Of a stretch of DNA of 64,000 nucleotides, positions 6,076-61,029 are shown piece after piece; position 1 is the stretch's first letter; each line of letters opens with the position of its first letter. Where the stretch lies: the NCBI RefSeq assembly GCF_019649055.1, contig NW_026570232.1:806001-870000 (forward strand), read 5' to 3'. The stretch is from Paramacrobiotus metropolitanus. Lineage: Eukaryota > Tardigrada > Eutardigrada > Parachela > Macrobiotidae. The position numbers were made by a program, and so were the translations under genes. Below the pieces are notes generated by a model. The model saw nothing but the letters and a program-made list of their open reading frames with translations. It made no database searches and was not told where the DNA came from.

Positions 6076-7178
6076 TATATACAGTATTCATGCATGTTAT
6101 TCCGCAGTACAACTTACAGTATTCGGTATTTAAGTACAGTACAGGACAACTGCTAATTGCGCATGGACCGGTACGTAGATGCAATTTAAGCGATGCCGGA
6201 CGACTTTGTAAAATTGTGCTAAACTAAAAGTGCATGCGGCGATGGTGCAGAACGTGCATTTCCTCAAAAAGCTGATTGCTTTTCAAGTTGCGATTACAAT
6301 TTTAATTTAATTGCGTCCGTGTTAAATAGCTGCTCGTGCTACGGATTTTATTTACCTATATTTTAGAGGCGAATGTATATAAAATCCTTAGCAGAGACAA
6401 TTCAGTCAACTGTTTCAGAGCTTAATGCTGTCAAGCAAAAATCGGTCAGAGGAACGTTAACAATAGAAACAGTCGACGGCAATTAGTTATAATTCAGGAT
6501 TTTCTGGTTTAATCACAACGTTTTTACTGATCTGGTCAACAATACTCTTGAATACTGCATTCATCGTATTATTCGCATGGCACTTATTCGATAAAGTCCG
6601 AAAGACAGGATTATTACCAATTGGATTTTAATCACTTCCGGTACACCGAGTACATAGCATGCGCGTACGCCGCCGTGTACCCGGCACCCGGCAAATCACT
6701 TGAAGCCCACTTTACTATATAACCATCTTTAGCGAATTGTTAACGGGAATCTACCGTTTATGTTTTTGCGAGACAGTGCTCAAGATAGTTATCAAGTAAA
6801 TGTTACAGCATAATCTTCGGATGATCATTGTTCAATCATAAAATACTCGAAGTTGTTATTCTTACACTACTAGTGACTAGTGCCATATGTTGCTTTCCAT
6901 GGAATCATCATTACGCGACGATTGAAAAGCGTCACCGAAACGGAAATCAGCATCGAAATAATAAGCCTTATTGTCAGTTTTTTACTGAAGTTTGGTAAAT
7001 GTAGTGTCTCAATTTTCTAGTGGCCCGCGTTGTTTAATCTTCAACTGCAAGCGGTCTGGATATTGTGAGTTTACGGTTTGTCGGATTATACACGTTGAAT
7101 ACACCAGGCAGTTATTTTAACTTCATAGTTCTGGTTTGATTCACCATTCGCTGATTCGAGTACTTAATACCATTGAAA
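6076..7178. other. Intergenic / 5' region of the chitin-binding gene
   Basis: No convincing coding sequence. It contains a TATA plus initiator arrangement (separate entry) and another TATA-like tract near 6713 (ctatataacc). Confidence 0.4.
6376..6407 (+). promoter_or_regulatory. TATA box with initiator, candidate core promoter
   Basis: TATATAAAA at 6376-6384, followed by TTCAGTC at 6401-6407. The initiator A lies 28 nt downstream of the first T, the canonical animal spacing. The next gene on this strand is the chitin-binding protein at 7179, which would need a long or spliced 5' UTR of up to about 775 nt. Assignment to that gene is inference. Confidence 0.4.
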
Positions 7179-8085
7179 ATGCTCCGCCTAGCTGTTTTTG
7201 TATTGTGTTCATTATTTGGATATTCGTTATGTGCTCATTCCTGTGAACCAAACAGCGCATTATGTATGGAAGCGAAAGGTCAGTTCGCTGTGCCCAATGA
7301 GTGCCGGAAATTCGCAAACTGCTGGGATTCGTGTGCTACACTATCGTCTTGCCCAGGAACTTTGGTAATTTATTGTTTAATATACAGTAAAAGTAGGCAG
7401 TAAAAATTTCAGCTCTTAAAATCAGTGAATTGTAAGTACCGACGTAAATGACAACGAATCTTACCAGTAAATTATACTTACCACTTGTTCACTTCACTTC
7501 GCTGCTCACTTTCAAGAACGTTCTGAAATCCTGTGCAGCACGATTAGTGCTTCTTGTTAGATGAAAACTGGGGCTGTTTAAATTAACCACATGTTTGGAC
7601 AGTTCCATAATTGATTGTGCAAATACTTATGGTTAGGTTAATATGTGACAAGATTACGTGTCTAATTTGATTTTAAATAAACAAATTGCAAAAACTGACT
7701 TACAGAGATATATGTAATTCAGAAAATGCGAGCAGACACTGAACAAACAGTATGCACTAGTCTGGTGCACCACTGTTCAGGACTTCAGATGTTAATCGTA
7801 ATGTTAATTCCTGTGCACTTGGACTTTCAGGTGTTCAGTGATGCTTTAGGAAAATGTGACTTCTCCTGGAACCTGGCAGCCGACCATCCGTGCTTTAAAC
7901 CAATGGGCAACATCGGCGGCGGCATAATTGGTGACATTCCAAAAATATCGCCTATTCCACCCCTTAATCCCTTGTTCCCGACGTTCTCCCCACTGGGAAA
8001 CATGCGTCAGCAGATGAATTCCGACGGTAGCATGTCCCAGAGCTTTAGCAGTTTATTTGGTTTCGACCATCAACAGCAAGCGTAA
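7179..8085 (+). CDS. Secreted single-domain peritrophin-A (CBM14) chitin-binding protein
   Basis: Two exons, 7179-7364 (donor gtaatt) and 7831-8085 (acceptor tttcag, stop TAA), joined in phase 0, 146 residues. Residues 1-19 form a signal peptide (MLRLAVFVLCSLFGYSLCA). Residues 20-83 carry a peritrophin-A domain with cysteines at 29, 42, 48, 58, 71 and 83, plus extra ones at 22 and 52. The stretch GTLVFSDALGKCDF is the typical aromatic 'lvFd...CD' chitin-binding core and spans the splice junction, which confirms the join. The C-terminal 60 residues are Gly/Pro/Ser-rich without cysteine (GGGIIGDIPKISPIPPLNP). A polyadenylation signal AATAAA lies at 8175. The protein probably binds chitin in cuticle or gut lining. 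The start is the ATG at 7179; no better upstream ATG is in frame. Confidence 0.9.
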
Positions 8086-11539: not shown

Positions 11540-11923
11540 ATGCATACGATGGCCCTATCACATATCGCAGCAACATTCACGCAAGCCGGCGCAGCAGCGG
11601 CACAAGCCGAACGGAAGAAAATCGGGAAGTACCAGAACATCACACAGGACTATCTGTTCCTTGTGGTGGGCGTTGAGATATTGGGGCCACTCGGATCAGG
11701 AACATCCCAGCTAATCAGTGAAGTTGGCAAGATGATTCGTCAGGAAATAGGCAAGATACTTGCAACGGAATATCTGCGCCAGAGGTTCAGCATCGAAATC
11801 CAACGTGGAAACGCGGCATCCATCTTGGGAACGGCACCAGCCTCGGCTAATTTAGATCAAATTTTTGTCTGTAATTCGGCCGCCGGGCGCCCGTTTCCGC
11901 TGCTTGTTAAATTTTTAATCTAA
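11540..11923 (+). mobile_element. C-terminal tail of a non-LTR retrotransposon protein
   Basis: An open frame of 127 codons resembling the C-terminal tail found after the reverse transcriptase of LINE-type elements in many invertebrates. Visible landmarks are an Ala-rich AGAAAAQAERKKIGKY segment, the pattern YLFLVVGVEILGPLG, and then YLRQRFSIEIQRGNAASILG; 'L.QRlS...QRGNAa.vlGT' is the hallmark I recognise. No reverse transcriptase or endonuclease precedes it, so this is a 5'-truncated insertion, the usual outcome of target-primed reverse transcription. The frame is not interrupted until about 11923, so the insertion is probably young. An AATAAA lies near 11967. Not a host gene. Confidence 0.7.
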
Positions 11924-14900: not shown

Positions 14901-15897
14901 ATTTTCTGTAGATTTCGGGTTGCAAAACTGTAATTTCTTTTTTCAAACACCGCGCATTTAATACTGACGATACACGTCGCATGTCCATCTGTTCAATAAT
15001 TCGTATGTGTTACCAATATTGTTTGTAAACTTACAGCCAGATGAGCCGAATGAGCGAATTACAACACTATACATATTGCAAATGTCACCCGAAACTGGAA
15101 GCGGCAAAAACATGGTACGACAAGTTCATTAATAACAGTTTAATGGATTAAATTTCAGTGATGTAAAGTGTTAAATTCCAAACCTATTTTTGGCTGCAAT
15201 TCAGCTGTGCAATGGCGAACCTTGATGGTGCGCAAAAAAATAATTTGTACCTACGTGTTGTTCTGGCTGATTAATATTGAAGTGGCTTTGACCTTTCCCA
15301 GGCATTGTACAGTAAACTATTCTCAAACAGTCTGATTTTATATCTGACAGTTTTAAGCAGCTTCGTATATTCTTGTACCGTGCATTGTTACTTGCTTATA
15401 TAGTATACTTGTATTTTACGCTGTTTTTTAACTTAAAGATTTTTTGCTACTTTAAATTGTTCTGTGTGACGTGCATCAACAATTCAACATTATCTGTAGG
15501 CAGCGTTTTATGAATTTCACGCCAATGCAATTTATTGTGTCTTAGCGTTCATATATTTACTGATATCCATTATCCAGTCACTGATTATTCCTGTTAACTT
15601 TGTGTTTATGACTGTAAAGTAATTATTCTTGGGAAATTTGTCTTGTAGAAATGACGCAATCTGGCGGTACAGTATTAATTGCACAAGATGGTAGCCGTGT
15701 TGTCCGAGTGGGATTGGTGGGTGTACGAGGCGTTTCCGGTGGGGCGACCGTGTTAACGTTCCCTTAAAGGATGTGGCCGGCCTGCTGCTGGCTGTTGAGC
15801 AGTTTCCGCCAAGTGCATCCTCAGACGCCTTAAGTGTCTTCTCGGGGGAAGAAACTGCTGTTCGTTCAGATTATCAATCGATCTCGATAAACAAATC
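11924..15897. other. Long intergenic stretch, no supported gene
   Basis: Contains a degenerate copy of a foldback repeat (12008-12220, separate entry) and a GC-richer island at about 13300-13870 that is open in several frames on both strands but has no recognisable domain. Short open stretches at 14198-14425 (-), 15041-15151 (+) and 15651-15767 (+) are unassigned. Parts near 15650-15897 may be 5' UTR of the gene that starts at 15898. Confidence 0.35.
12008..12220 (+). repeat. Degenerate single arm of the 34.8-kb foldback repeat
   Basis: Begins TTAAGGGAAGTGACCCGATA, like the arm start at 34783. Further on it keeps 'cgcgttcccaaacac...ttgttttatgacattctgtaccc', matching the arm near 34850-34890. 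Many mismatches and an AT-rich insertion lie between. It is an old, solo arm of the same family. Confidence 0.6.
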
Positions 15898-18766
15898 ATG
15901 CCATTCAGTGTCCAGAGAGTTCTGCTGTTCTATTATGGTAAGAAATGCAGCCGGGAGGGAATTTATTTGGTAAAAACTCACTGCTCATTCAGTAGACCAT
16001 GTGTGCGCTCATGTATAGACTATTCAAGAGTAGTTATGACTACTTATCAGATAAAAATCGATTTTTGTTCCGGATATAAACCCGAATATCACCAACACGA
16101 ATCACTGTCGGCAAAGCAAAATATTACCATCTGGATGGTTTTCATGAATAATCGATCCACACTCCCCAGCTACTGCTGTTTAAACTTTTAAAACAGTTAA
16201 ACTTTTGGTTTTGAATAGATTTCGAAAACAAATTAAAAAAATTAGAATATATATACATACGAATACGTATAATCGAATACGGATACGTATTTAAAGAAAC
16301 ACTTTGATAACTTTTTTAGTACTATTGGCTATCGCAGAAAGAAACATTTTCGTCCAATCAGCAGCCAGTGGTAGCAAAACGCTAACCGTGGTGGAGAACA
16401 TCGTGCAGTACTCGGAAGCGGCCATGGACGCCAAAGCCAAGTCCAATCCGGCGCGTAATGCGCCGCCGGCCGTAGTTGCCGGCGGCGACTCCAGCCGTTT
16501 CGTCACCGCAGGGATTCCCCGGAAGACGGCCTCGAAATTTGCTATTAGTATATCTCGTGCCAGGGAAAAAATTGCCCAGACATTCAAGTTCATTGTCCGA
16601 CCGAAATCCAGCGTGGCGCGACCGGCTGTGGCACAGCTGATTGCGCCGGTTTACAAGATTGACGGAGGTACATTAATCAATAACGTGATATTTGGGTGCG
16701 TATCTGTTTGCATAATTAGTCTAAGGAAATTAAAACGTGGCGTTTAGATGTAGATATTCAATTCAATCTGTGTAGACACACAGAATACAGCAATGGCACA
16801 CTAAAATAAAATCACTGTTGACTGAGTGCTGCAATGATTATTTATAAATTATACATATGTTAAATATACGTAAATATGTACCCGTAATTACATTCTCGCA
16901 GGTTCACGGAATAATCATATCGATCAGCTGGTGAATAGCATAATGATGCATACGAATCGCAGTGTTTTGTACGACGCGGAATTGAAGTCTATGATCGTTA
17001 CACAAGCGGAAATGCGGACAATGACGGCGGAGAATGGCCAGAGTAACATTCTGATTCACTCCAAATTGATTGATGTTTGTTGGTTGTATCGGTGGAATTT
17101 CGAGTTCCCGCTAGCGCGATTACCCGGCGTAATCATCGCTTTTCTGGCTGATGACACCATTTCGGGCAGCAATTTCCAGGACAAGGCTGAGTACGTATCG
17201 AGCATAAATTCTGACATGGTAGTAGTATCACCATGAGTCTGACTATAAGCGCGGTATAATTTGTTGTTTTGCTCTATCAGTTTGAATACGTTCAACTGTC
17301 TTGTAAGTTGTTTTTGCAAATTGTGGTGTTTCACGTATGTTTCGCTCGCTTTTTTTAAAGCAGTAAAAACTCTTCGCTTTCTGTACTTGCAGCTTCTTGG
17401 CTGGATTTATGCAGCATGCACTGGATGTGTACAATAAGATGCGCCAGAGTCCGGAGAGACTGTTTACCGTTTTCCAAATTCCATCGGGTACAATTCTTAA
17501 ACACTGTGAAGCGGTCGCAGCCGAGGAACCGTTCACGATTGCCGTACACAATCTGCTGGGAATCTATTCGGCGCACACTATCCACAGGGAATTTCTTGCC
17601 GGTACTTACAGTTAGTTAGAAGAAAACGACAGCAAATTTAGCACAATGACATACGAATTATGAGGATCTAAGTTATGCGGGGGAAAATAGCTTTACTGCG
17701 TCTGACGTATCTATACACATTTGCAAACTTCATCTGTGCAAAAAAAAACACTGATTCTTGAGCCTAGATATGCATGTGATTAACGTTGTTAGTACGGCAC
17801 CAGTAGGCTACGCTATAAAGGTTCATTAATCATTAATACAATTGTATGTTCCAACATATGGCTCAACAAAGGGACACATACTGTATTATTGCTTTCAGAT
17901 TTGGTGGAAGCCAGCACAGTTTGCACTGACGAAATCGCCAAAGAACCTGTGTTCCATGAAGTTAGCCCATGCTTCTTTTATAAAATTAATGTCAGCCAGC
18001 TTCTCGATTTGAGAAAACCTGATAGTATATTCCGCAACGACGATATCTGCCGGTAAGATGCCAATGCAACGCAACATGGGCGAAATGAATTAGCAAATTA
18101 GCGCCTTCCGTATCTGCAACAAATTATACAGGCAATTCTAAATTAAAGAAGAATGAAGGTGCCGGTATAAAGTTGTTTTACGAAACTTTATTTCATACTG
18201 TACGGAAAATTAGCCAATAAGCGATTTTTGTACAGCTTGTTACTTATTACGGTTTACATTTCTTGGATGTAAACCGTAATAAAAAATTATTAGTAATGAT
18301 TTTATAACTCTTCTAAGAGGACTTACTTTACGCATACCTCATGGGCTGCGTTATAAAAATCATGAAACAAATGTTCAGAGGTAATATTGATCTTTTAGTG
18401 AAGTTTCCTAATTACATATTTGTTAGGTATGTTACGATTTCGCATGAACTTGACCTTTCTTACAGGTACTACTTCAGTCCTCCTATGTTATCCTGCATTT
18501 CGCGAGCTTGGTCGTCGAACTGCACAGTCGACATGCTGTTGACAATCAACATGTTCATTAGGAATTTCTTTCTGTGTGCGGAATCGCTTCCTAGGGACAC
18601 GGTATTGTTGATTGCACTGTTATCATCAGAAACACTTTGTTTCGTTAGAACAAACTTCTGTGACGATAAGGCTGCTAATTTGTCTAGGCAATCTTACTCC
18701 AGGATGATGAATATTTACGAGATTTCGAAAAGTTGTACGGTTCAGCTTCGCCGATCTGTCAAATAG
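15898..18766 (+). CDS. Orphan secreted protein with a cysteine-rich C-terminal half, six exons
   Basis: I rebuilt six exons: 15898-15937, 16320-16667, 16902-17190, 17393-17601, 17899-18052 and 18466-18766. All five junctions are GT-AG and keep frame (phases 1, 1, 2, 1, 2), giving 446 residues. Residues 1-20 form a signal peptide or anchor (MPFSVQRVLLFYYVLLAIAE). Residues 30-125 are Ala/Ser/Lys-rich without cysteine. From residue 189 on there are eleven cysteines (189, 264, 304, 320, 346, 357, 366, 384, 405, 412, 437), suggesting a disulphide-bonded extracellular domain. Distinctive stretches are FLAGFMQHALDVYNKMRQ and EVSPCFFYKINVSQLLDLRK. I recognise no family. Exon 4 can also be read through to a stop at 17615, so a short form is possible. 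The last exon might end at the GT at 18601 if a further exon exists. The first exon is short, so the exact start is the weakest part. Confidence 0.65.
18244..18282. repeat. Perfect 16-bp inverted repeat (hairpin) in an intron
   Basis: TTATTACGGTTTACAT at 18244-18259, a 7-nt spacer, then its exact reverse complement at 18267-18282. It lies in intron 5 of the orphan secreted gene. Confidence 0.8.
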
Positions 18767-19715
18767 GTGAGCGGTTTGCTTACTTGCGAACAAAAAACAA
18801 ATGCATAAATTTTTAAGTAATTCTAGCCGATACGTTAAGGTATCTGCTAGAATTCTGTATTTTTCTGATAGTTCTTGTAAGAAAAACACATTTAAAAGTG
18901 TTCGATCTATTGTACACTGACTGTTAGACTATTAGCGATGGAGAAAATCATCAGATGTATGCCAAATACGCTGGACGGGAGCTTATGTACATTTACCTAG
19001 TACATTTACTTAATTAAGAGATTTTGCCTGCGCCTGTGCCGGCAAGTCCCGAGGCGAACATTAATTTATGGAAGTATTGCAAATATTAATTTATGGAAAT
19101 ATTGCGAAAAAACTCTTACCGGTGTTCTGTTTTTTAGGAGTGTTTGGATTTATTCCAAAAACCGTACTGTGCGTTTCAACTATATTTTTGCGCCTGAAAC
19201 TCACGCTGTGGTAATGCACACGGTTTTGCAACTGACTGCTTTTTTAGCATTTCCTTAAATTATTTGCAGAATCGAAACAGTATTTCAAATTGTTTTTGAC
19301 AATTACGAATTAGCTCATGATCAGAGAGCTTGTTCTTTTTTTAACTTTCGTTACATGTTACGTGCCTTACAAACGTGTAAATACTGTAGCTGCAGTTTAG
19401 CGGTGTCTTTCTATGGATTTGGTCTCTGTTGTGATGCACAAAGAACAAAGGTGTAGTCCATCTTCGTATGACCAGTTTTTATTATACTGAGTTAAACAGT
19501 GATAGATAGTTATACCTTATAACTTGTAAGTACATTTATTTTATTCGCACCCTTATCTATCTTGGTAATCTTGTTCGCATGGTATTTGTACAAATATACT
19601 AATTAAGGAAAGTCGAATTTAATAAATTGTTACGTAGTTTGCCTTGAAATGACAAAACAGGAACACATGTGCGACCAGTTGATGCAAAATAACAAAACGC
19701 CATTTAACAATCAAG
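18767..19715. other. Intergenic, between two converging genes
   Basis: AT-rich 3' flanks of the orphan secreted gene (+) and the cadherin-like paralogue C (-). Nothing else seen. Confidence 0.45.
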
Positions 19716-21365
19716 TTAATACGGCGCTGCGTTAGCGCAGTTGTCTAAAGTCATTATTCGAAGACAGCCGACGCCAGTTCTGCCGGAAGTGTCCCGCGCT
19801 AGCACCTGTACCGGCTGTATTGTCTGGCGCGCGCGCAGCGGAACAGCAGCATAGATTGTTCCTGTACTATCAATCCTGAAATTTGTGTTTGGAGGCGGAA
19901 TTGAGTACGTAACTTTAGCGGTCTCGTCTTCCATCCAGATAGTCCCAATTGTAGCGCCTGCTCCACAATTTCCTATGCAGTACAATAATTTACAATATTG
20001 TTGTGGTGAAACTTTAAACTTCCCACAATGACATGGTTATATTGTATGAGTACTACTTTATTAGTACTGCAGTGTAGCTGTGGTCATCCAATGTTTCTAA
20101 TTACTCATGAAATCATAAAAATACGGACCATCAATTACCTTCCGTTTTCACGGTGCAGTATAAAAATATAAATCCGATTTTATTTTCTAGTTAATTTCTA
20201 ATGCTTACTGGTCATCAGAAGAAACTCCCATTGACCAAATTTCAAAGTGGAAGGTGATGCCGGCGTGGCGACACACTGCGCGGCTGTCGTGGTCATTTGC
20301 GTCGTCGATGTTGTGGTGGTGGTTGTGGTAGTTGTCGTTGTGGAAATCCGTGGACAGTCATTACTAACAGTAACATACGCTGACGCGGTTCTCTCTGTTC
20401 CCTTCATGGCCGTCACCGTAAAGGTCACGCCTAATGCAGGAAACGCTCCCGTTAAGTACAACTGACCATTAGGATACAGCTTTATATATGATGGAATATC
20501 CTGTCCGGTGTACGTCGTTGTATACACCGAACGAGCGTACGGCGCCACCGAACCAATATACGTCCCGTTGGTACAAGTGGTAACACTGAAGCTATACGAA
20601 GTCTGCCGGAAAGGTGACATGGTCGTGGTGGTTGTCGCTGCACTGCAGGGCGCGATGTTGACTGTAACGAAAGTGGTGGTGGTGCTGCCCGCATCCAGAT
20701 CTTGAGCTTGAACGACGAATATAAAGGAACGACCGGATGAAAGAGGTTGTGCGATGAACAACTGACCGTTGGCCGGGTTAATGGCGAAATTGGGATCGTT
20801 GCTGGGAATATTAAAGCGCACGGCGTTGGGGAAGTATGTGAGAGCCAACTGGTCGATGAATGTTCCGGCAGTTGTTGGGTTGCTTATGCAGAATGAGTAG
20901 GATGGGTTTTGGAAAGAAAAATCCGTCGGTAGGGCCGCCTGGCGGGAGTACCTTTCCTAGTAGTACAATTCAGTATAAATTTGAACTCGAAATTACACCC
21001 ATGTATTCGGCATTTTTGTGCCACATCCATTTCTAGGTCACAAAAAACTTGGAACAAGAATGTGGCGATAGCTGATGTCGGTTTTGATAAATTATTTTGA
21101 TGGAGCATTAGTTCAAGAAAGTACATTACTTAGATGTGGAACCACATTACCCACATGCATAAAAACGATGCAGAGATATATACTCGTAGATACATGTGCT
21201 CGCCTGCATTATTCTATGTGCCAGTTCAATCCGATTAGTTTAGCGCTGGCATTTGCAACAAATGCATGACGGCTTACTTACCGTGCTTTGGATACCTAGG
21301 ATTGATGTAAATATGAGAATCAAACTATAAAGGTGGATTCGGCACATAATACCGGTTGGATCCAT
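19716..21365 (-). CDS. Secreted cadherin-like repeat protein, paralogue C
   Basis: Exons on the minus strand: 21365-21282, 20938-20209 and 19972-19716, in phases 0 and 1, 356 residues. Exon 1 encodes only a signal peptide (core HLYSLILIFTSILGIQS), donor gtaagt. Exon 2 opens with FSFQNPSYSFC and then a cadherin-like unit: DPNFAINPANGQLFIAQPL followed by FVVQAQDLDAGSTTTTF. A second unit follows, then a Thr-rich linker of about 20 residues encoded by a (gtt/gtg)n-like tract. Exon 3 completes a third unit (NFRIDSTGTIYAAVPL, VQVLARDTSG). The pattern 'F.I....G.l.....L......v.A.D..' is that of cadherin strands, but the Ca2+-binding DxNDN/DRE motifs are not clear, so 'cadherin-like' describes fold only. 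No transmembrane segment, so probably secreted and matrix-associated. The ATG at 21365 lies 4 nt from the start of a 368-bp inverted-repeat element; a second ATG is at 21347. Confidence 0.75.
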
Positions 21366-21368
21366 AAT

Positions 21369-21736
21369 AGGCATATCCCGCTGAATACAAATTGTAAAGA
21401 ACAGGAGATGACAAGAGAACAGGAGATGACTTATGGTGATTGCTTGTGATAACTAAAATTGCCAATTTTGACTTAAATCTGCTCAGCTTTGTACGGAAAT
21501 AACGATGCGGGAAGTGTCATTTCTGTAAAGTTGATGCTGAAATGAGCAATGAAGTCGAAAAGTTATTCGCAAGTAGTGTTTTGACTGTTTGCTGGATTAC
21601 CGGTAGCAGACTTAGAATTCAGGTTTAGCCGGAAGTTCGCAGCATTCTCTAAGGATCGCACTACCACTGCCCTGTTCATCTTTGTTGTGCTGCAGCGCAC
21701 CTGTTCTTTACAATTTGTATTCAGCGGGATATGCCT
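21369..21736. mobile_element. 368-bp element with perfect 36-bp inverted termini
   Basis: The 36 bases at 21369-21404, beginning AGGCATATCCCGCTGAATAC, recur exactly as the reverse complement at 21701-21736. The interior of about 296 bp has no coding capacity. This is the structure of a MITE or other non-autonomous DNA transposon. I see no convincing target duplication. Its left end touches the start-codon region of paralogue C, so it forms that gene's immediate upstream DNA. Confidence 0.7.
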
Positions 21737-22342
21737 TTACAAGAACCAACTGAGTCAGCAATTCTCTATAACAGTTACTCATGAAAAATAATGTTCGGTA
21801 TATATGCAGGCTTAACGCTTCCAAAGAATGTGGTCGGTCTACAGTGGCCTGCTCGTAAGGTACAATATATCACATAATAAAACATGCAGAAGTCAAGACT
21901 ATTTAATGTACTTAAAGTCTTCTAAATTCTCGTAAAAAAATTAGTTACGAATGTTTATAAAAGTATACCATAAAAAACTATCTGCTTATTAGTTATTACT
22001 ACTTCGATTATCTATGTAAAGTGTATGCATCACCGAAAATTTCTCAAACAACTGCATGACTGGTACAAAAGATACAAACCAAACAACTTTGTATAGACTA
22101 TAGAGTGAACAATCAGATGGTAAGATTTCTATTTGAAGACTACATATTTGCAACAGTAGGTCCCAGTGCTGACCGACGGACCTCCAAAAACATTGTCATA
22201 CTTATTTCCGCGCGATTAACTTTTCATTTCCTACCATACACTGGAAGTCTGGAACCGATATACTACTCGTGGTACTGCAATGATACACTCTAACAGATAC
22301 ATGCTTTGTATGCAAAAATATTTCAATCGATCGATGTTTTTA
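21737..22342. other. Intergenic between cadherin-like paralogues C and B
   Basis: AT-rich and without a convincing open frame. Contains the 3' flank of paralogue B. Confidence 0.4.
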
Positions 22343-22960
22343 TTAGCCAATAATGTCTGGAGACGACTGGGATCCGTAGCAGTTTGCCGGTATAATAATA
22401 GTAACCGGCACCGCAGATGTTTGTCCGTCACTTGTGGCCATCACGTGCAGGGTCTGTGTTGTCCCGGACAACGGTGGTGTGTTGGAAACCAAGATTTGCC
22501 CGGCGGGGTTGATAGTAAAGTACGGACTTCCGCCCAACGCATAGGTCACCGCTGACCCCGTGCTCGTTGTGACCGTGAGTTGTCCAACGATTGATCCGCT
22601 GTCGCAGTTCGTGGCCGTGAATTCAAAGGCAGGGTAGGTCATCTGGGGTGTAGCGGGAGTAGTCAGAACCGTGTTGACTGGTCCACATGGCGATGTGTTG
22701 ACGGTAATATAAGCGGTCGCAGCGCTGCCGGTGTTGAGGTCCTGGGCTTGTACGGTGAAGGCATACGATTGGCCGGATGGTAAGTTTTGGGCAATCACTA
22801 GGTTTCCCTTGTCGGGATCGACGACGAAATTGGGATCATGGCTGGGAATGGAGAAGTGGATGGCGTAAGAAGAATATGTCATGCGCAGTTGGTCGAGATA
22901 TGTGCCGGCTGTTGCCGGACTCGGCACGCAGAATGTTCGAGAAGGATCTTGGAAAGATAG
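22343..22960 (-). CDS. Cadherin-like repeat protein, paralogue B (5' end not found)
   Basis: One exon, 22960-22343, with a plausible acceptor (aaccaatcag) and stop TAA, 205 residues. It opens LSFQDPSRTFC, parallel to FSFQNPSYSFC in paralogue C. It continues DPNFVVDPDKGNLVIAQNL and AFTVQAQDLNTGSAATAYI, and ends with a unit nearly identical to paralogue A (TYALGGSPYFTINPAGQILV) and the tail CYGSQSSPDIIG, which matches A's tail CNGSQSGPDIG. An upstream signal-peptide exon in phase 0 is expected but I found none between 22961 and 24525. Either it is short and missed, or the gene has lost its 5' end and is decaying. The sequence itself has no internal stop. Confidence 0.6.
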   Translation of the reverse strand, partial: LSFQDPSRTFCVPSPATAGTYLDQLRMTYSSYAIHFSIPSHDPNFVVDPDKGNLVIAQNLPSGQSYAFTVQAQDLNTGSAATAYITVNTSPCGPVNTVLTTPATPQMTYPAFEFTATNCDSGSIVGQLTVTTSTGSAVTYALGGSPYFTINPAGQILVSNTPPLSGTTQTLHVMATSDGQTSAVPVTIIIPANCYGSQSSPDIIG

Positions 22961-24525
22961 CTGATTGGTTTGCCGACGTGACCTTTCGGTTTTCGTCTAA
23001 TAATATGCACAATCGCAATTTAAATTTACTGAAAGAGCAGTATGATGAAAAAGTTAAAAAAGCACGCAGTCAATCGATGCATATACCGTATTTCATATCT
23101 ATTGCTAATTTAATATTATCAAGTGTATCTCTCAAAATGCATTGCTGGGTGTGTGGTTTAATGGACACAACGCACCGTTTGGATGCACAGCAAAATAGTG
23201 CATACAAGGAATATCAGCCAAAGTGGACTGTGCCACATAATGATGTCCGCTTTCTAAAAAAATTCGCACATTCAAGTTCCTGCGCGGGCGCATTAGCGGT
23301 AACAATAAATGTTTTAATTACATCGGTATGTTGAAGATAACTGACCTGGTTAATTAGCTGTTTTCTCTTTATCCTACCGCAAAGTTTTGGTATACGATTA
23401 TTCTGGGTCAATTCCTCGATAAATGCAGAATTCTAACATATACATGTATTACACCCTCCGTGCTGATTAGTTATCGTACTCGTAGTTCTGCGTAGGTGTT
23501 GGCTTTTTATGTAGGGTTCGCGTACTCTGTCATGCTTAGTTTGCGCTCTTATTTTCGCCTCCTGTTGTTTGAAATCAGAGGAGGAACAAAAATGGGCAGG
23601 CATAATTTTACAAGATCTATCTGCAATAAAAATCCTTTATGTGAACTTCCTGACGCGGCATCTCCCAGCTTACGTTTTGCCAGATAAACGCGAATGGTAA
23701 AGGCAAAGCTTGTTACAAATCAGGTACAAAGAACAACTATATTCGTACAACTTTCACGCAGTTGTGCACGGTTTTCCTTAATTGTTAAATATCGTATACC
23801 ATGCAATATCAGTAGTACCTCCGTGTTCTGATGAACTTGACTTTAACCCGGGCACTACGTAATTTTGCTCCTGTTTGCAAATATTACTCTCTCATTATTT
23901 TGGCACACACATTCAAAATTAAGTAAATGAAAAATGAATAAATTTGAAAAATTTGTCTGGTCAGCAGAATAAAAACAATTGCTCATATCGGCCTGCAGTC
24001 TGTATATTGTGCTGATAAGGCGTAGATTTGACCGTTTGGCTCATGTTTGATTACTTGTTCATCGCTTTTCCCTCCATACTGACAATGAGTACTGAGTAAT
24101 AACTATTAAAGCTGTGAAATTCTTTTTCGTACATGCAATGCCAGTCCAGAGGAACTGAACATGTGTCTGAGTGCAAAACCCCAGCAAAATTCAAGTAGTG
24201 CAAGTGCAATGTACAATTAATGCCAAAAACACATTTTTGATGATACTTTTTTAAAGAAGGAAAATTAATGTGAAAGGTTTTCGCGATAATTATTTGTGGC
24301 TGTACACTGTATAGCCTGTACTAGCCCTACATATATATATATAGTGACTCGGAGAGCTTGGATGGACAGTTTTGGAAAGCTGATAACTACAGTATAAAAG
24401 TTTTTATTTGCAGTGAGACAAAAATAGATGCAGCGTTGCAGAATGGGACGCAAAACCGCTGTACGCTTTTTAAAAAATACGTACAGTATTCTCTGCACTC
24501 TGTACATTAACTGGCAAACTGGCCA
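22961..24525. other. Spacer between paralogues B and A, with an exon relic
   Basis: No complete gene. A minus-strand segment at about 23325-23248 reads as VSYLQHTDVIKTFIVTANA, resembling the start of paralogue A's second exon (TTNYLQPCSLYNVIVRASNA). It is either an unrecognised internal exon of paralogue B or a relic. A plus-strand open stretch to 23334 overlaps it but looks fortuitous. Confidence 0.35.
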
Positions 24526-25949
24526 TTAGCCAATATCCGGTCCCGATTGCGATCCATTGCAAAGCACCGGTATAGTTATCATAACCGGCACCATCGATGA
24601 TTTCCCGTTACTGGTATTTGTAGCGTAAACTTCCACGGTCTGGGTCGTTCCGGAAATTGGGGGAATCCCGGACACCGAAATAACACCGGAGGAATTAATC
24701 GTAAAGTACGGGCTGCCACCCAGCGAATAGGTCACCGCGCCGGAAGTAGACGTGGCCGTCACTCTCCCGATAATCGATCCGCTAACACAGTTTGTCGCCG
24801 TAAAGGCATAGGCGTTTTGTGAAAAGGTCGGGCTGATCCCGGTTGACACGCCCGTACATCCGGCAGTGTACAGGGTCACCGGCACCGACCGACTGCCGGC
24901 GCTGTTGGCGGCGATGACGTTGACCACGGTGGGACTGTTGGGCGGGGCGTTGGTCAGCGTAATCTGGCCGCTAAAAGGGTTAATGTTGAAGTATGGGGAA
25001 GCTAGGGAATAGTTGGTGGCACGAGCCGCGGTGACGACGCCCACGTAACTGTTGATAGGGCACCCGTTGCCCACGGATATACTGTAGCCGGTCGGCTGGT
25101 CGAAGGCGGGAATGGAGATGGCGCTGTTGGGGCACGATGTTTGCACGGCTACGTTGGTGTAGGGATTGCCCCGCTGGGCGTTGCTAGCACGCACGATGAC
25201 GTTGTAAAGGCTGCACGGTTGCAGATAGTTGGTAGTTATCTAAGAAATGCAAATAATTATACAAGATGAACATGTATCGCAATAACGTGGCAAAAAGATA
25301 TTTTAGTATTTCTATGTAACCGCAAACTATAAATTGCAGATCGCTAAAACCGACCGATGATTGCAGAATGACGGCAGTATGTTAGCTGGCGTATTAATTT
25401 TATGATTACCGTGCCGTCACGCAGATGCCTCACGAATGTTGGTTGACATATGAACTATGACCATAAAATAATCTGCATGCCAAACAAACCCCTGATTGTG
25501 AAGCCACCAAACTTTCAAAAATAAATCTTTGCGCATTACTTGATTTTAAATTGCTAAATGGTCATATTTCCAATTGATACTCGTATATCTATAATATTAT
25601 ATGAATCAAAAACGTGTCGTGCAACTTTTCGCCACACATCCGTATTATTGTTCGTATAATAAGTTCTCGTACAACTGGGAAGTTGGGAACATACCAGTGT
25701 TCCGTTAAGATAGTTGATGGCAAAATTGTTGGTTGCATAAACAATGGTCCATACTGTGGCAGACGGATAATTAACAGACACCACACCAACAGCTGTGTTG
25801 AGCTTAACATCGCTCGCTACGGAAAATGTATAGCTAGGGCTTGAAAAAGCCAGTGCTTGTGATACAGCAACCGGAAGGGCGTAAGACAATAAAAGGACAC
25901 CAAAGGTCACGCTTACGGTTGAGTGTGTGAACATGCTGATCATGACCAT
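24526..25949 (-). CDS. Secreted cadherin-like repeat protein, paralogue A
   Basis: Two exons, 25949-25695 (donor gtatgt) and 25239-24526 (acceptor tttcttag, stop TAA), phase 0, 322 residues. The N-terminus has a signal peptide (core VTFGVLLLSYALPVAVS); in-frame ATGs at 25949, 25943 and 25934 are alternatives. The repeat units follow: YTFSVASDVKLNTAVGVV with NFAINYLNGTL at the splice junction; YSLASPYFNINPFSGQITL; and YAFTATNCVSGSIIGRVTA with YSLGGSPYFTINSSGVISV. Each unit ends in a short 'V.AANSAG'-type strand and a Cys, so units are about 80-95 residues with one or two conserved cysteines. The tail is CNGSQSGPDIG. No membrane segment, so secreted. A TATA box lies 88 nt upstream of the ATG. 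It is the most complete member of the trio and shares most with B. Confidence 0.78.
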
Positions 25950-26036
25950 CTTGCCGGTATACCCTAAAGTCTGTCCCCTTTGCAATTTGCGTTACTGCAG
26001 ATTGACAATGAGTTGTTTTACGGTTTACCACGTGTC

Positions 26037-34215: not shown

Positions 34216-34244
34216 GGCCTTAATTTGGTGAAACAACCGGCACA

Positions 34245-37200
34245 ATGTACAACCATTCCATTTTGCTAACCAAAATGACGCGGAAGAAGGAGACGCAGCA
34301 GACCGTCGAGGGTCTACAGAGAAACCTGAAACTAAAAGATGAATACATTGAAAAATTGGAGCATGATATCCGGGAGAAGAATGAGCAGATCACACGATTG
34401 ACCAGTCTTGTGGACAAGTACCAAAGCGTGTTCACAACCAATCAGAGCCTCCTTTCCGGGCCGAAACGTCGCCGAAATCCCGGCATTAGTGCTGAGCCAG
34501 TGCGCGCTGACCGGGCACTCGAATTCAAAAAGGAGTCCGTCAGGAAATATGATAAAGGAAAAAAGTAAGGAATTTTTCTAGCTGGTCATTTCTCTCCTTT
34601 TCAAAATTCTCGAGTACTCTGTACATGTACGACAGATTTGGAGTTGAAATAGTACTGCTGTAAGTTTCAAAATATCCAAAGCATATGCGGATACAGACTT
34701 GAAAATTACTCTGGCGTTCGAAGAAACTGCATGGACGTCAGTATACGATTTATCTGGTGATCGTTCACATTCAGTAGTTGCTTAAGGGAAGTGGCTCGGT
34801 ACATGGTACCAAAATCGTGTAGATGCACGAAATATTTCACTTGCGACTTTCAAACCCTTTTTTCTCTTGTTTTATGACATTTTGTAGCCAAATGATTTGT
34901 ATACAGGAGAAAACCGTTCGTGTAACATCAGTTCGGGAGTTATGGCTCTTAGAAAATTCCAAAAAGTTTAAATGCATTCAGGTGTACCAAAAGTCTCATT
35001 ATGGACCGATCTCCTTCAAATTTTGCACGTAAATGAACATAACCACGAAGAACGTTTTTACACCGATCCACTGTTCTAGCATGTTTTTCAAATTTTAAAA
35101 TGAATTTCAAAAAATTTAAAATTCATTTTAAAATTTTAAAAAAATCATAGAACTCTGGATCGGTGTAAAAATGATCTTCGTGGTTATGTGCATTTACGTG
35201 CAAAATTTGAAGGAGATCGATCCATAATGAGACTTTTGGTACATCTGAATGCATTTAAACTTTTTGGAATTTTCTAATAGCCATAACTCCCGAACCGGAT
35301 GTTGCGCGCACAAACGGTTTTCTCGCCTGTGTATACAAATCATCTGGCTACAAAATGCCATAAAACAAAAGAAAAAAGGGTTTGGGAGTGCGCAAAAGTG
35401 AAAGATTTCGTGCATGTACACGATTTTGGTACCATGTACCGGGCCACTTCCCTTAAGGGCGTTAGCGTTGAAGGTGTTGTTAAAATCGCGATCTCAAATC
35501 TTACCGTAATCTTAAGCTTTTGCGAAATCGAAAATCGTAGTGAAGAAGATTCTCTTGCACTTCTCGCTGGATTCTCTCTCTGACATCATGCTCGATCTGA
35601 ACCACTTTTACAAGATTCGAAATTTTTAACGACGTTTACAAAATAATTTGATCAACAGGTGGTCAAAACTTTAATATTGCCATACTATTTTCAGTTGGCA
35701 TAATACAGGTATCTAATTTGGTTTGGTTAGTTACAGTAGTTTCTCTTTTTTTGTTATTTAAGGTTGCTTCTACGTACAGGCGTTTTGGAAGTACTGCGCT
35801 TTTGTGCCGAATCAGTTAAAATTGCCATGAATTTCGATAGGTGTATCACTTTTATGGCAAATTTCGTTATTTTTATTGTCGCTGTTGGCATTCACGAACA
35901 GTAAAGCACCATTTAATAGTTGGGTTAAAATAAAATTGCGGGACAGCTTTTCTGTGGCGTGTATCGTATAATTGTACTTAATAACTAATGGTCTTTCTTG
36001 CTTTATACTTACCTTGTTAGTCATACTTAGTTAGACTGCACGTTATCTTCGGCTTCGTATGCGACTTAGTTTTAAATAATTATTAAAGCTCTTGTTATGT
36101 TATTAAAAATTTTGTAAATTTACCGAATTTGGTGCTATACTTTCTAACATTTCTAACAAATGTGGTACAGAACTGCCAGATCGAAAGGCAGTTTGTACTT
36201 CCGTACAGTAATAAGTTTGCTGTATGGTAGATATATGCTGTATACATAATCGTGTAAGAAATATAATCCAAACAATTTCACATTGGTCGTTTGTCAGGTC
36301 GACTACAAAATCTAATATTCGACCAATTTGCAGGAAGACAATGCACAATGCACGGTTGCGTATATATATTTTTTAGGACTTAAGAGTCCACAATAACCCC
36401 AATGGCTGTAAGATATTGATTTGTCATTACTACGTAGCAAGGCGTGTTGAGTCACGCTTGTGGGCGTTATGTTTGAGAGTCGGCGTTTTAAGTTAATTAT
36501 TGCGTATCCTTGTCATAACGTTTGGAGTGTAATTTGAAAACTGACGGCGAAATATGTCATCTGTTAAAGGCATTCCTCATAATTTGACCGCTTATCATCG
36601 TTCTGCCTTCGTCCACTGATGCGATGCTTTTCTGCATCCTGTGTACGGATACATGTCGCCTCGTCTTGTTGACGGACGAGAGACGGTGTTTAAAAATTGT
36701 CTGTAATCCGATCCGGCTTATTTGTTAGTTGTTTATTTAATTTAAGGAATTCAGCATCCTTTTGAAGCTTGGTAATTTGATAAGCAGAAAGAATGTTGCA
36801 GTTTCTGTACAGTGTTAAAGTTTCAAAACTTTTCGCCCTCGCTACAGAAAATTCGCAAGGCACGGAAAATTCACAACTATACGGCTGGGTAACTTGGGTT
36901 AGTGTTGAAATGGGCTCTCCTTGTGCGCTACTTCGGGTACCGTTAAAAAAACTTTCACAAAGGCAGAATGTTTAATAATTTTCCTGCGCATTTATTCTTT
37001 CGCGCGGCTATGATATTATGTACAGTAAATATTGTTCGTGCCTTAATATTCATAAACTGTACTTTCGACACTTTTATGTCAAGCTCAGAATACTAATGAA
37101 AACGTAGTAGGCCGATCCAGAAGCAGAGATTCAGAAAATCTGTGGGTTTAATTTCGCGAAAATTTGATCGCGTAAATTTCTGATCCTTCCTGTAACGAAT

Positions 37201-40200
37201 GTTTTTCGTTTCTCCATATCTTAACTCGTAAAAATCCATTGATGATGTAATTTTATTTTGTATTAGCGACCGGTGGTGGTCCCTTGGTGTTTGATGATTA
37301 TCTTCCCTGCCGGTTCAACATCAGAGTTTCCAGTGGTTGGCAAGCCGAAACCGCACCCGTCCACAGCTTGCACCATGCATCGCAAACCGCTATAAATCTG
37401 TCTGTAGTCAATCGAGTTGTGACTGAACCGTGTTATAGACGTCAGCCGGAAACTTGTCAGTTTTCTGCCAATTTTTATTTTCAAAATAGCACCCGCACAG
37501 TTAATAACTGTAGACGTGAGTGGGAGCTTTTTTCCTCTAACGTGCACAATTAGTTCGGGCAGATAAGAATTTTCCGATGGGGTCATTGCGTGAGTTCCAG
37601 TGGGCGCTGCTGCATAAGATTCAGGAACTAGAGTACAAGGATATTGAGATTAATGAATTGCGGAAGATTTTGTCACAAAAGGAGGAACTGCTGGAATATC
37701 AGAAGCGGGAAATTGCCAAGCTGAGAGAAATGCTGAAAATGGCTGCTGCCATGATTACGTTGCCGGTATCACCGGTTGTATCTGGTGCGGTTGTTGTGAA
37801 AAAACCCGCAGCCAAAAAGCGAGTGGCTATTTCGGCTGAACCTATTGATGCGCAAGCAGTTGCCACGTTGACCTTAAACCTCAAACGTCCCGTTACTTCC
37901 CGCAAATTTTCACAGTATGTACGCCTTATAACTTTGAATTTTTCATAAACATCGTTTTTAGTTATTTAATTTATTAGTTTCTGCGCGTTGTTCTGCGACC
38001 GCAAAGTGGTAGTTATTTTATTATTGAGCCGTTTCGAATTCTGAACCATATTCTCTTATATTTTCAGTCTGTTTGACCTGCAAATCTGTTTGACCTGCAA
38101 ATCTGTTTGAGCTGCATGTACATGCATTTTGAAGTTGATTACAGTAATTTTACTAACATTGCATGTAGATTCTGTATACATAATCCATATATTTCAGCAA
38201 GTTATGGGATTAGAATATTTTCTAATCTTGCTGTTGTGTTACTTTTTATGGATTATGTATCTGCATAAAACTACTTAAGTGCTGCATGCGAAGTGGTTGA
38301 TTTGTTTTTTCAAAAACCAGATCAGTAGTTTTGTATTCCTGACCGGCACTTAGAAATCCTTAAATTGTTTCACTTTCAAGTTCGATAGCTCGCAAAAAGA
38401 GCACGAGTATTTTGGATGTTTCAGTAGAAGGTGAGTGATGTTTGTACAGCAGTAACGAAGTGGAATGCTAATGGTATTGAATGCACTGGGCGTTTGTTTT
38501 TAATTTGAAGTTCTGACGCAGTGATGTGTTGTTTTAGTAACATGATACCGAATTTTCCTCTATCTATGTGCCTTACGTTAATACCAAGCGTGCTGCCGGT
38601 ATATGCCAAGCCGACTGTCTTTAAAATAAGTAAAGTAGAAGAAAAGAAAAGAGGGTTTGAATTGACAATTTCCATTTTAATCTCGCTGAGTAAAGTGATA
38701 CGATCGAATCAAAATCTCTTTGCCTATGGAAATCGGTTGGTAATCTGCTTGCCTAATTCGTGATATTAAGTGGTTTTATTGCTGATTCCTGCTTCTAGAA
38801 CGGCACAGTGGTAGGAAGGGTCCATAATGCATATGGTGCAAGCAAGACTGCAGAAACGACTTTGATGACAGCTGGAGAATGAAAAAACTTCAGATTACAA
38901 TGTTTAAATGTGATTTTCAGTGTATGTTATCTAACATTCGAGACGGTTCTGAAGTTGTTTTAATTAAATAATGTAAACCGATAACCAGATTTTTCAAAAA
39001 ATATGTGTGATATCTTATGATTAATTTGCTGAATCTTCGTATTGCAGTAAGATTATTTATACAAGTATGCTTGCAACCGTGCACGTGTATAAACCATTGC
39101 TAACAAAGACCGTAATTTTTTACGCTGCTTTTACAAAGTAGTACATGTATACCTAGACAAAATGAGGAACTCTTCTGAAGGAACAGTAAGCTAAGCGTTA
39201 TAAAATGCGCTGTGCAGCACAGAATTTCTGCTTAAGCAGACAAATCGGAGAATTTTGCTTTTGTACCATAAAAAAGGGTAAATTTTGCCGAAGGGTCGTG
39301 CAGTAATGCTAATAACCATAATCAGTTTCGAACCTTTCTGAATTGTTCCGCATAATCGCGATCACCATACGTTCTTTGGCCTTCCAACCAGATTTAAGAC
39401 GTTGCGATAGCCTTCGTTTTGTGAATAAGCAAGTTAGTTAATTGGATTTGATACTGCATAGTAAGAGAGCGGAAAAGACTGCAAAAAAGATGTTATGCAA
39501 GTGATTTTTCCGGGTTGTAAGCTAAACGCTAGCCAAACTTGTTCTGCTGGAGTAGCATACTGAAGAGTGCTTTTGGTCAATGCAGATCAAAAGCCACCAT
39601 CAAGCAAGCCATATTGGAGAATGATTTTATGAAGAACTACGATCATCAAGAGATCTCGGAAATTGTGGATTGTATGTATTATGTGGAGTATGCTGCCGAC
39701 GAAATTATCATACAGGAAGGAGAGGATGGCAAGCTTATGTATGTTCTGGAAGGTGAGTGCCGAATGCTGCATTATATACAGTATCAGTTTAAATTATGTA
39801 TTTCTGCATTTAATCATGCAGGGCAAATTACCCAGTTCATATACGTATTACCTACATATTCTACTGACTATTTTGTGCGGTTCAGTATTTTATCATTGGC
39901 GATCGTTGCTTAACTTTTAACTACTAGTACCCGCACAATTTGTAGCTGTTTCACAGATACATAATAATTTCCATTATTGTTTTACCAGTAGTAATACATA
40001 ATATTCATCTCAATTCAATGACAAGGTACAAACGCCACCCAGCAGGGCTAAATGAGCAAACTGATAAAAACGACAATCAGTTTGCAATAAATTTTGTGGA
40101 AGGTTAAACGATACACGAAATGCGGAAACAGTTACATTGTACTTTCGTTCGCGATTGTATGCATAAATAAGCGTTTTGACACACGTGAAGCACACGCGCC

Positions 40201-55267: not shown

Positions 55268-58200
55268 ATGATTCCATGGGAAAAAATGACAGGAAACGGC
55301 TACAAATCCGGGAAAATGAAGCCAGCCGTCAGAATGGACCAATCGTGGTTAATGCGCTATCTGCGCGCCGCAGCCCTGTCACGGAGCATCGTGTTGACCT
55401 TTATCGTTGGACTGCTGTCACTCTTGCTGCTGGGATGGTGGGTGGCGGTCAAACCCGACGAAATCGCTATGAAAACTACACCAAACGGCCGTGCTGACGA
55501 TATCGGCGGGCCGGATCCAGTGATTGAACTGCCCCGGCCCGTCAGTGTCACTACGACGTTGCCACGGTTAAAATACGAACCCAAAGTGTTGGTGTTTGCG
55601 GAAACGCAGTATTCGCCGCTGGGAAGGGATATTGTGACGGTGTTGGAAGCGGTGCGGAAGAAATTCCGGGTGGAGCTGGGTGGGAAGAATGTGCCGGTGT
55701 TGACGTCGGAGGATCGGGGAAAGTTCAGTCTGATTGTTTTTGAAAATGTGGATAAGTATTTTAAAATGGATAAATGGAACCGCGACTTGCTGGATCGGTA
55801 TTGCCGTGAATATCACGTGGGAATTATCGGATTTCCACCGTTGTTGGAGCACACGCTGATCGGCGCCACGGTGCCCAATATGCAGATGCTCATGCACACC
55901 AATGTCCAGCTGCAGGATTATACTGTCAATGTAGCGAGTCCTGTACTGCATCTCACTAAAGGGGGACAAAGTTTAGAAGGCGTTTTACCAGGTTTGCATT
56001 TAAGTAAAGCTAAACTCTGTTTGTTGGCAACATTGCTACCAATTACTCTTTTTCGCTGCTCAGCCTCAACGGACATAGTATGATTTATAACTTTATTGCA
56101 GATTTGCAATTGTAAAACGCGCTGTTGTGTGTATGACAGGTTCGGTATTATATTGTTTTATTAGTTTAGCATAAATTTGCATTGCGAGGCGTCGAAGTAT
56201 ATAGCCTGATAAATAATTTTTTTCTTGTCTTTTTTTGTTAACAATTTTTTAACATACTTGACATTCATTAGTTACATTGAATTAATTTTTTAACAATAGT
56301 TACTATAATAGAAATTTGGTCACAGGAGATGATTGGACGGTTTTCGTTCCAAAGCACGAAACGTATGAGATCGTCGCGTGGGCTCTTCTTTCGTCGCCAT
56401 TGAATTCGACGCCGAGCGCTAACAGCACGCAGTTGCCGACAGTGGTATTAGATACCGGTAAACTCGACGGAGTGCGCCGCGTGTTCTTCGGGCAGTCGTT
56501 GAAGTTTTGGTTGCATAAGATGTTGTTTCTGGATGCGATGGGTTATCTGATCAATGGCGGACACCAGCTGATGCCCTTGACGCGCTACATCCTCATTGAT
56601 GTGGATGACATTTTCGTGGGACGGAAAGGGACCCGTATGAACATCAGCGATGTTCAGGTAAAAAACTAGGATGTCAAACCGCCGACGCTCGAGACGGTGG
56701 ACTTCAATTATAAATCCAGCTGTTTGGATTTTAAATGCGATCGTTTAAGTTGTCCACATAACAGTAGATACATAATAATTGTTAGTTGATAGCAAATGTT
56801 AAATTTAACCTTGTGCAGGCCATGATTTCGACGATGATGCGATGGAGAAAAACCGTAGCGGGTTTTCGGTTTAATTTAGGATTCTCGGGAAAATACTTTC
56901 ATGCTGGATTTGAGGAAGAAAATAAGGGGGACGATTTACTGCTAGGTAATGAATTTAACATCAAAATCAAATCTCATCTCTGTTCGCGTGTTTCAGCGAA
57001 ACAGATGGCATTGACTGTTAGGACTAACATAAATCGTTATTGTCACCGTTGTTATCGTTGTTGTATCGTTGTTTATTGTAATTACAGCTAATGCGTCCAA
57101 GTTCTGGTGGTTCTGTCATATGTGGGGACATTCGCAGCCACATCTTTTTAATGCCAGCACCGATGTAATCATTCGGGAAATGCAGCTGAATTATCAGTTT
57201 GCGAAGGTAAGAAACCCACATCCTGGAGAAATACGATGATTATGATATTGCAAATCAAATTGAAAAACCTTCGATTAGTACTAACTTTACTGTTACGGTA
57301 CTAACTTTACTGTTACGGTACTAACTTTACATGGCTAATCTTTTGTGGAATATGGCTTGCAGATATCTAGTTTTCCACATTATAATTTATATACTGGTTC
57401 CACTAACAACTGCTGTTTAGATTTTTTTCGCTTTAACTTTGAAGTGCTTACCGTTTTTTGTGTCGGTGTCTATCTATTATCCATTAAAATTACTGTTCGA
57501 TTCGTGACGTCAGTAGAACGTTTTGGATGTAGGAAAATGGCATTCCAACGAATTCGGGCTACGTTATCTCGCCGCACCATTCTGGCGTGTATCCGGTACA
57601 TGAGCCACTGTACGATGCCTGGCGGCGCATCTGGAATGCACAAGTGACCAGCACGGAAGAGTATCCCCATTTCAAGCCGATGCACATCCATCGGGGATTT
57701 ATTTATCGCGACATCCGCGTCCTACCGCGACAGACATGCGGTCTGTACACGCACACCATCTTTCTGGAAAGCTATCCGGGTGGAAAAGAGCGATTAGAAC
57801 GGAATATCTTGGGTGGCGATCTCTTTATGACCTTCCTTTATAATCCCATCAACATCTATATGACCCACTTGTCTAATTATGCAAATGATCGTTTGGCGCT
57901 CTACACCTTCGAAAATCTCTTTCAGTTTATAGGTAATTTGTTTAATCGTTAAGCAGGCTTAATATCAGAAAATACTTATTAGCCGTATCGCTGGTTTCTT
58001 GATATTCCGACCAAAAATTTTAGTTACTTGTATTTCCAAAGTCTGGAAGTTTTGTTTCTTTGGTTAAAATTAATTTAAGTCGTTGTTTTTCAAGTCCATT
58101 TTTCGATTTGGTTGCTTCTGTTTGTAGCTTTGTTAACACGTTCCCTGAATTTGCATGCTGGTTTCTTTCTATTTGACACGAAACTTTTTAGATTTTGTTT

Positions 58201-60170: not shown

Positions 60171-61029
60171 TCAGTCGAGTTTTTAATTTTTTATCGTTGA
60201 TGTTCCTAAGTCGCTTTGCTTGTTGAATTTTAAAAATGGAAAATGGTTTCGATCTAGATGTCCCTGGATGTCTGCAGACGAAAAAGAAAACTTACATTCC
60301 AACACGACGCATAGAGATAGAAAATGTACATAGAAAATTGTGTACCCACATCTGCAGATATCTGATGCCATTCACACAAAATCTTTTACGTTAGTAGAGA
60401 AAAATAGTCTCTTCAAAAATTGTGCAAGGATGCACTTTTATGTATCTGTATTAGGTAGGTTGCCTTATACTCTTTCAACTCGTATACAATATTTTCTGTT
60501 TGGTACTGCAGCGACCTGGCGCAAAAGCCATGAACTAATTTTGTGTGAATTATTTGCAGGTACAAAAACTAACCTTATGAGACGAATAAGAGTGTTTCAG
60601 AAAATGTAATTTTGAGAAACTGTCAAATAAAAATGCTTTATAAAATAGTGTATGAATTATTTGAGCAGTATATGCATTCATATTTCATAATAATAAATAT
60701 TTATTAGAAGCTTGGTTAGCATTCCAAGAACTGTCAGATGTGTTGCATGATTTACGTACTTACAGAGTACATCTTCCGATATTCGGCGGAAGACGATCAC
60801 GCGCCGCAAGGCTCCTTTATTTGCGAATGAATTATGGAAAGCAAACAGGTTTTGTGGCAAGACAAGGTCAATCCGATACCTCCACTAAAACTGTCCGTGT
60901 TTGTACAGTTCGGCACCGCACTGGATTTTTACGATTATGAGCAAGTTTTTTGGAAGGCATTACATTTCACGGATAATAGTTTAGTATAGTTTTGCCATTG
61001 TCGAAGAACTTGTGGTTGACGTGTACACG
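60171..61029. other. NDST 3' UTR and spacer before the GR-like gene
   Basis: The NDST polyadenylation signal is at 60626. An open frame from ATG 60834 (51 codons, beginning MESKQVLWQDKVNPIPPLKL) looks protein-like and could be an upstream exon of the GR-like gene. It is in a different frame and I found no strong donor/acceptor pair to join it. Confidence 0.35.

Follow-up and report, generated by a model that had tools for sequence, protein, structure and literature searches.

A spliced animal gene with a likely secreted, cysteine-bearing product and an ambiguous 3′ end

Genes of the tardigrade Hypsibius dujardini contain 5.94 exons on average, functional and similarity annotation covers about 50% of the proteome, and 4,364 of the 19,901 genes are species-specific singletons (PMC5531438). 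Here we describe a gene in a stretch of DNA of 64,000 nucleotides, called ‘the window’ below. Among known extracellular helical cysteine-rich families, those that come into question as relatives of its product are the arthropod 27-kDa haemolymph glycoproteins (Pfam DUF1397) and nematode proteins of the DUF19/CPG4 type. The arthropod glycoproteins presumably have a cysteine run similar to that of the present product.

The locus is a real multi-exon protein-coding animal gene. A preliminary description had assembled six exons, separated by five GT-AG introns, in one frame, and recomputation from the sequence gave the same 446 codons followed by a stop. The introns are 382, 234, 202, 297, and 413 bases long, all GT-AG. 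G+C content is 41–56% in exons vs 32–37% in introns, with even the lowest of the six exons above the highest of the five introns. The exons and the alternatives to them discussed below are collected in Table 1.

Table 1 Exons of the gene and alternatives at its 3′ end, in positions of the window.
Feature	Positions	Strand	Content or remark
Exon 1	15898..15937	+	Start codon and first 13 codons of signal peptide; 40 bases
Exon 2	16320..16667	+	End of signal peptide, followed by a basic segment rich in Ala/Ser and free of cysteine; 116 codons
Exon 3	16902..17190	+	First cysteine C189; sequon N148
Exon 4	17393..17601	+	C264
Exon 5	17899..18052	+	C304, C320, C346
Exon 6, better supported part	18466..18601	+	C357, C366, C384
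Exon 6, entire, as in the preliminary description	18466-18766	+	
Probable 101-base intron, taken as coding in the preliminary description	18602..18702	+	
Alternative exon 7, different frame (DDEYLRDFEKLYGSASPICQI)	18703..18766	+	Ends at strong donor AG/GTGAGC, 18767
Tentative last exon of alternative model	19138..19214	+	Acceptor 6.8

The neighbours in the window are ordinary animal genes (perilipin, an OST3/OST6-type subunit, Bax inhibitor-1, a CBM_14 exon, thioredoxin, a protein kinase, THAP, and heparan sulfate N-deacetylase), and the locus therefore lies on a metazoan chromosome. The CBM_14 exon, at 7155–7403 (+ strand), encodes a chitin-binding Peritrophin-A domain that scores above its curated cut-off. 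On the − strand, 19716–25991 encodes one or more apparently cadherin-like proteins whose extracellular domains are repeated; the Cadherin and Fn3-like matches there are weak and below the curated cut-offs. The kinase gene has a weak coiled-coil match at 34224–34565, and the kinase looks cGMP-dependent. An open frame of 358 codons at 60985–62061 (+ strand) contains many hydrophobic stretches and has no Pfam match at E up to 1; its product presumably resembles a chemoreceptor. Another open frame, 11573–11923 (+ strand), without Pfam match at E up to 0.1 in 11573–11920, is presumably similar to the tail at the C-terminus of LINE reverse transcriptases. Two tandem repeats fall in introns as modelled, one in the NDST gene (57278–57330, 20 bases × 2.7, 100% matches) and the other in the kinase gene (38068–38116, 17 bases × 2.9, 96%).

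Consistent phase over five introns had been offered as a strong argument for the gene. The gene is real, but the phase argument is weaker than claimed, because the junctions had been chosen to keep the frame, which makes the kept frame a weaker and non-independent kind of evidence. Our gene model used dynamic programming with codon scores and donor/acceptor matrices. Codon frequencies were trained on 18 segments (2,329 codons) from other genes in the window, and the splice matrices combine generic values with those of 26 introns from the window. None of these training introns comes from transcript data; all were taken from gene models that we built for the kinase, NDST, thioredoxin, BI-1, and OSTC.

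The best chain in 15600–19700 scores 44.8, with its start at 15688 and its stop at 18056, whereas dinucleotide shuffles of the locus reach a maximum of 3.8 (n = 300). On the opposite strand of the same stretch, the best chain scores 12.9. When the start codon of the six-exon chain is imposed, the best chain scores 43.7, and the exact six-exon chain scores 29.4. Among 30 blocks of 4.1 kb, ten score above 20 and the remaining 20 score at most 12.9. All ten high-scoring blocks overlap either the present gene or a gene model some part of which matches Pfam, although for the two cadherin-like models among them this match lies only below the curated cut-off.

The junctions between exons 2 and 3 (16667/16902), 3 and 4 (17190/17393), and 4 and 5 (17601/17899) were recovered in both gene-finding runs, the first of which takes a spurious far exon if let into the neighbouring gene. 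The exon 5/6 junction was recovered in the first run only and the exon 5 acceptor in both. The exon 2 acceptor was placed at other in-frame sites, at 16362 in the first run and at 16338 in the second.

Codon log-odds in the claimed frame are 29.4–29.5 for exon 2, which is near the median of known coding windows, 13.1–15.1 for exon 3, 8.6–9.2 for exon 4, and 3.7–4.6 for exon 5. The other two forward frames are negative for each of these exons, with stops in seven of the eight. Three reverse-strand frames are positive but lower, at 18.9 with a stop for exon 2, and at 4.2 for exon 4 and 0.6 for exon 5, both without a stop. When stretches of the same length were placed at random in non-coding DNA, they were open and scored as high in 9 of 15,488 placements for exon 2, 26 of 15,870 for exon 3, 60 of 16,101 for exon 4, and 195 of 16,611 for exon 5. 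However, 11–19% of open unmasked non-coding stretches, a comparison set that may include unmasked real exons, match the codon scores of exons 2–5. Codon use alone is thus moderate evidence for these exons, and the strength comes from openness, codon use, and splice sites jointly.

Our main reading, with a probability of roughly 0.55, is that the product of this spliced nuclear animal gene is secreted and acts outside the cell, and that it combines an N-terminal part that is basic and lacks cysteines with a disulfide-bonded C-terminal domain. Secretion had been proposed from a signal-type N-terminus, and it is likely, although it depends on where exon 2 begins. Three in-frame acceptors are available, 16320 with a score of 2.1, 16338 with 5.1, and 16362 with 0.7. 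Read through 16320, the product would start with a signal peptide of 19 residues (MPFSVQRVLLFYYVLLAIA, followed by ER) that has A-I-A as its cleavage motif; with 16338 the signal peptide is absent. The h-region VLLFYYVLLAIA has a mean hydropathy of 2.66, a value that 2.3% of 388 random open ATG starts from unmasked parts of the window attain. With 16338 or 16362, the core hydropathy is 1.0, which 49% of random open starts reach.

The product could instead be intracellular and the gene still real, if 16338 is the first base of exon 2 or a different start codon is used. We hold this to be unlikely: acceptor 16338 is indeed the better one (5.1 vs 2.1) and was picked by the gene model, but VLLAIA, completing both the hydrophobic core and the A-x-A cleavage site, would then be a coincidence of intron sequence. 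Because the 18 bases gained by starting at 16320 instead of 16338 code for just these six residues, we favour acceptor 16320 despite its weak score, which is below those of all 26 training acceptors.

Exon 1 has A at −3 of its ATG, a donor ATG/GTAAGA scoring 4.9, and codon log-odds of +1.4, indecisive alone. An unrestricted gene model favours an upstream ATG at 15688 by 1.1. Just upstream of exon 1, 15650–15850 is a G+C-rich block (46–64%) with open frames on both strands, and a Pfam search with one + frame of it gave no match. The block may belong to the 5′ untranslated region or to an exon unrelated to this gene.

At the 3′ end, exons 2–5 stand, but the 3′ part of exon 6, up to the proposed end at 18766, was not confirmed. 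Codon log-odds of the entire exon 6 are −11.7, a value that 134 of 152 open non-coding placements reach. Within it, 18464–18601 is neutral (0.1, with 1.7% of coding windows as low), and 18602–18700 in the original frame scores −7.7, below 99.6% of 1,778 coding windows. Further downstream, 18703–18765 in the alternative frame scores +0.9 vs −2.1 for 18701–18763 in the original frame. The segment of 101 bases from 18602 to 18702 is probably an intron, and the last 54 residues of the original product are probably not protein. On the other hand, the donor at 18602 (2.1), which is weaker than all 26 training donors, speaks against such a split of exon 6; the acceptor scores 3.7.

The donor AG/GTGAGC directly behind the proposed TAG scores 6.8, the strongest of seven scored, and such a site occurs about once per 5,100 bases. 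It could belong to an intron in the 3′ untranslated region, and the original end would then be possible. The acceptor at 19138 also scores 6.8 (about once per 2,500 bases), and the exon 19138–19214 has weak codon log-odds of −0.7.

When whole tails were compared, the score was −12.0 for the original end, −5.0 for 18466–18601 joined to 18703–18766 and 19138–19214, and −2.8 for a stop at 18056 without a sixth exon. Two alternative 3′ ends thus beat the original one, the poorest of the three compared, by 7–9 log units, and the gene model does speak against the original end. This enumeration also yields other tails, probably due to chance, with scores of −3.0 to −6.4, and therefore the gene model cannot choose between the alternative ends.

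If intron 5 is retained, the frame stops at TAA 18054–18056. A short form of about 348 residues could end there, at 18056 inside intron 5, and be polyadenylated at AATAAA 18278, with exon 6 belonging to another isoform or being non-coding; such a form would be compatible with secretion. Its 3′ end scores highest of those compared and also appears in the best gene models, and its AATAAA lies 222 bases downstream of the stop, beside a stable hairpin. However, by our own estimate DNA of this kind would contain an AATAAA about every 1.4 kb, and the splice sites flanking intron 5 are both strong (5.9 for the donor at 18053 and 6.1 for the acceptor at 18466). In addition, 18480–18554 is locally G+C-rich (0.49–0.56) in the manner of an exon. 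We hold the short form to be unlikely.

The hairpin in intron 5, at about 18244–18283 (+ strand), is an inverted repeat whose 16-bp arms match perfectly around a 7-base loop, and it overlaps the AATAAA at 18278. It is very stable as RNA (z = −4.8; 0 of 200 shuffles fold as well), and it is present as a single copy in the window. It could mark the 3′ end of the short form.

The 446-residue product has cysteines at residues 189, 264, 304, 320, 346, 357, 366, 384, 405, 412, and 437. The eleven cysteines counted earlier in the C-terminal half are there as read, but three of them fall in the doubtful tail. The count is uncertain because the 3′ end is ambiguous; the five cysteines of exons 3–5 are secure, three more are likely, and the last three are doubtful. 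The cysteine-free Ala/Ser-rich segment of the preliminary description was found again, as the first cysteine is residue 189. Within the first 130 residues, the signal peptide is followed by an Ala/Ser-rich stretch that is basic (+10) and has no cysteines, and the cysteines cluster from residue 304. Sequons are present at residues 148, 326, and 365, and a fourth, at 418, is inside the doubtful tail.

Under the main reading, the protein would most likely enter the secretory pathway via its N-terminal signal peptide, which would be cut after Ala19 (AIA/ER). The mature N-terminus, about 110 basic, cysteine-free, Ala/Ser-rich residues with a net charge of +10, may then be a flexible or binding tail. 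The next region of about 200 residues is predicted to be compact, and no fewer than five of its cysteines, more probably eight or nine, would form disulfides in the ER. N-glycosylation would take place at the three sequons outside the doubtful tail. Our guess is that the protein acts outside the cell as a disulfide-stabilised protein of body fluid, matrix, or cuticle. The further proposal that it represents an undescribed secreted family, confined to the animal’s lineage and built from a basic Ala/Ser-rich tail with a new disulfide-bonded domain some 200 residues long behind it, is tentative and somewhat doubtful.

The product had been called an orphan of no recognised family, and this holds for Pfam, NCBIfam, PHROGs, PDB, phages, viral contigs, and prokaryote genomes. 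Its orphan status is relative to those libraries, in which animal proteins are represented through Pfam and PDB. Pfam gave no family at E up to 10 with the whole product in two 3′ versions, with exons 2–6 singly, or with five sub-segments, where HMMER filters may hide very weak matches. There was no match in NCBIfam with the whole product, in PHROGs with residues 1–384, or in phage records with a 356-residue stretch. Two PDB sequence searches were empty, and a third gave one meaningless chance match (E 9.2). With residues 1–392, 9 pattern matches arose in viral contigs and 34 in prokaryote genome contigs, of which none was confirmed in either set.

A tblastn search of the window for a paralogue gave, beyond the gene’s own exons and their open extensions, one match with E below 1, all others having E > 1. 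This one (E 0.013), at 18925–18707 on the opposite strand of the locus itself, was taken for chance. The most promising by eye of the matches with E > 1, 23266–23319 (+ strand), was rejected as a paralogue: it scores 37, whereas shuffles average 31.7 and reach that score in 82 of 500 cases, and the codon log-odds of its frame are −23.4. Internal duplication was also rejected: one of three segment pairs scored 35, a value reached in 8 of 300 shuffles, but the second member of this pair is in the doubtful tail and the match vanishes in the alternative model.

The product might also be a diverged member of one of the families introduced above, DUF1397 or DUF19/CPG4, beyond profile recognition, which would be compatible with the main reading. 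The cysteine spacing from residue 304 (C-x15-C-x25-C-x10-C-x8-C-x17-C) presumably resembles that of these families, and a secreted protein of such size fits them. However, none of these families appeared at E up to 10 in the Pfam searches with the product in either 3′ version or with its pieces. We consider such membership quite unlikely. Among the matches listed in literature searches on 27-kDa hemolymph/DUF1397 proteins and on tardigrade secreted, orphan, or lineage-specific proteins, the excerpted texts contained nothing bearing on the product.

If the main reading is true, the large unannotated part of an invertebrate proteome grows by one uncharacterised secreted protein, and by itself the gene opens no long-standing question. 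Its practical value is a corrected target, in which exons 2–5 (16320–18052) are safe for homology search and RNA-seq, but the last 54 residues of the original product are unsafe.

Compared with the arthropod 27-kDa haemolymph glycoproteins (DUF1397), the product is presumably similar in its secreted size class and its cysteine run, but differs in lacking a Pfam match at E up to 10 and presumably in having a longer basic N-terminal segment. Like the Hypsibius dujardini singletons (PMC5531438), the present gene is multi-exon and has no recognised domain. Because such singletons number 4,364 of 19,901 genes in that genome, an unmatched multi-exon gene like this one is expected and ordinary.
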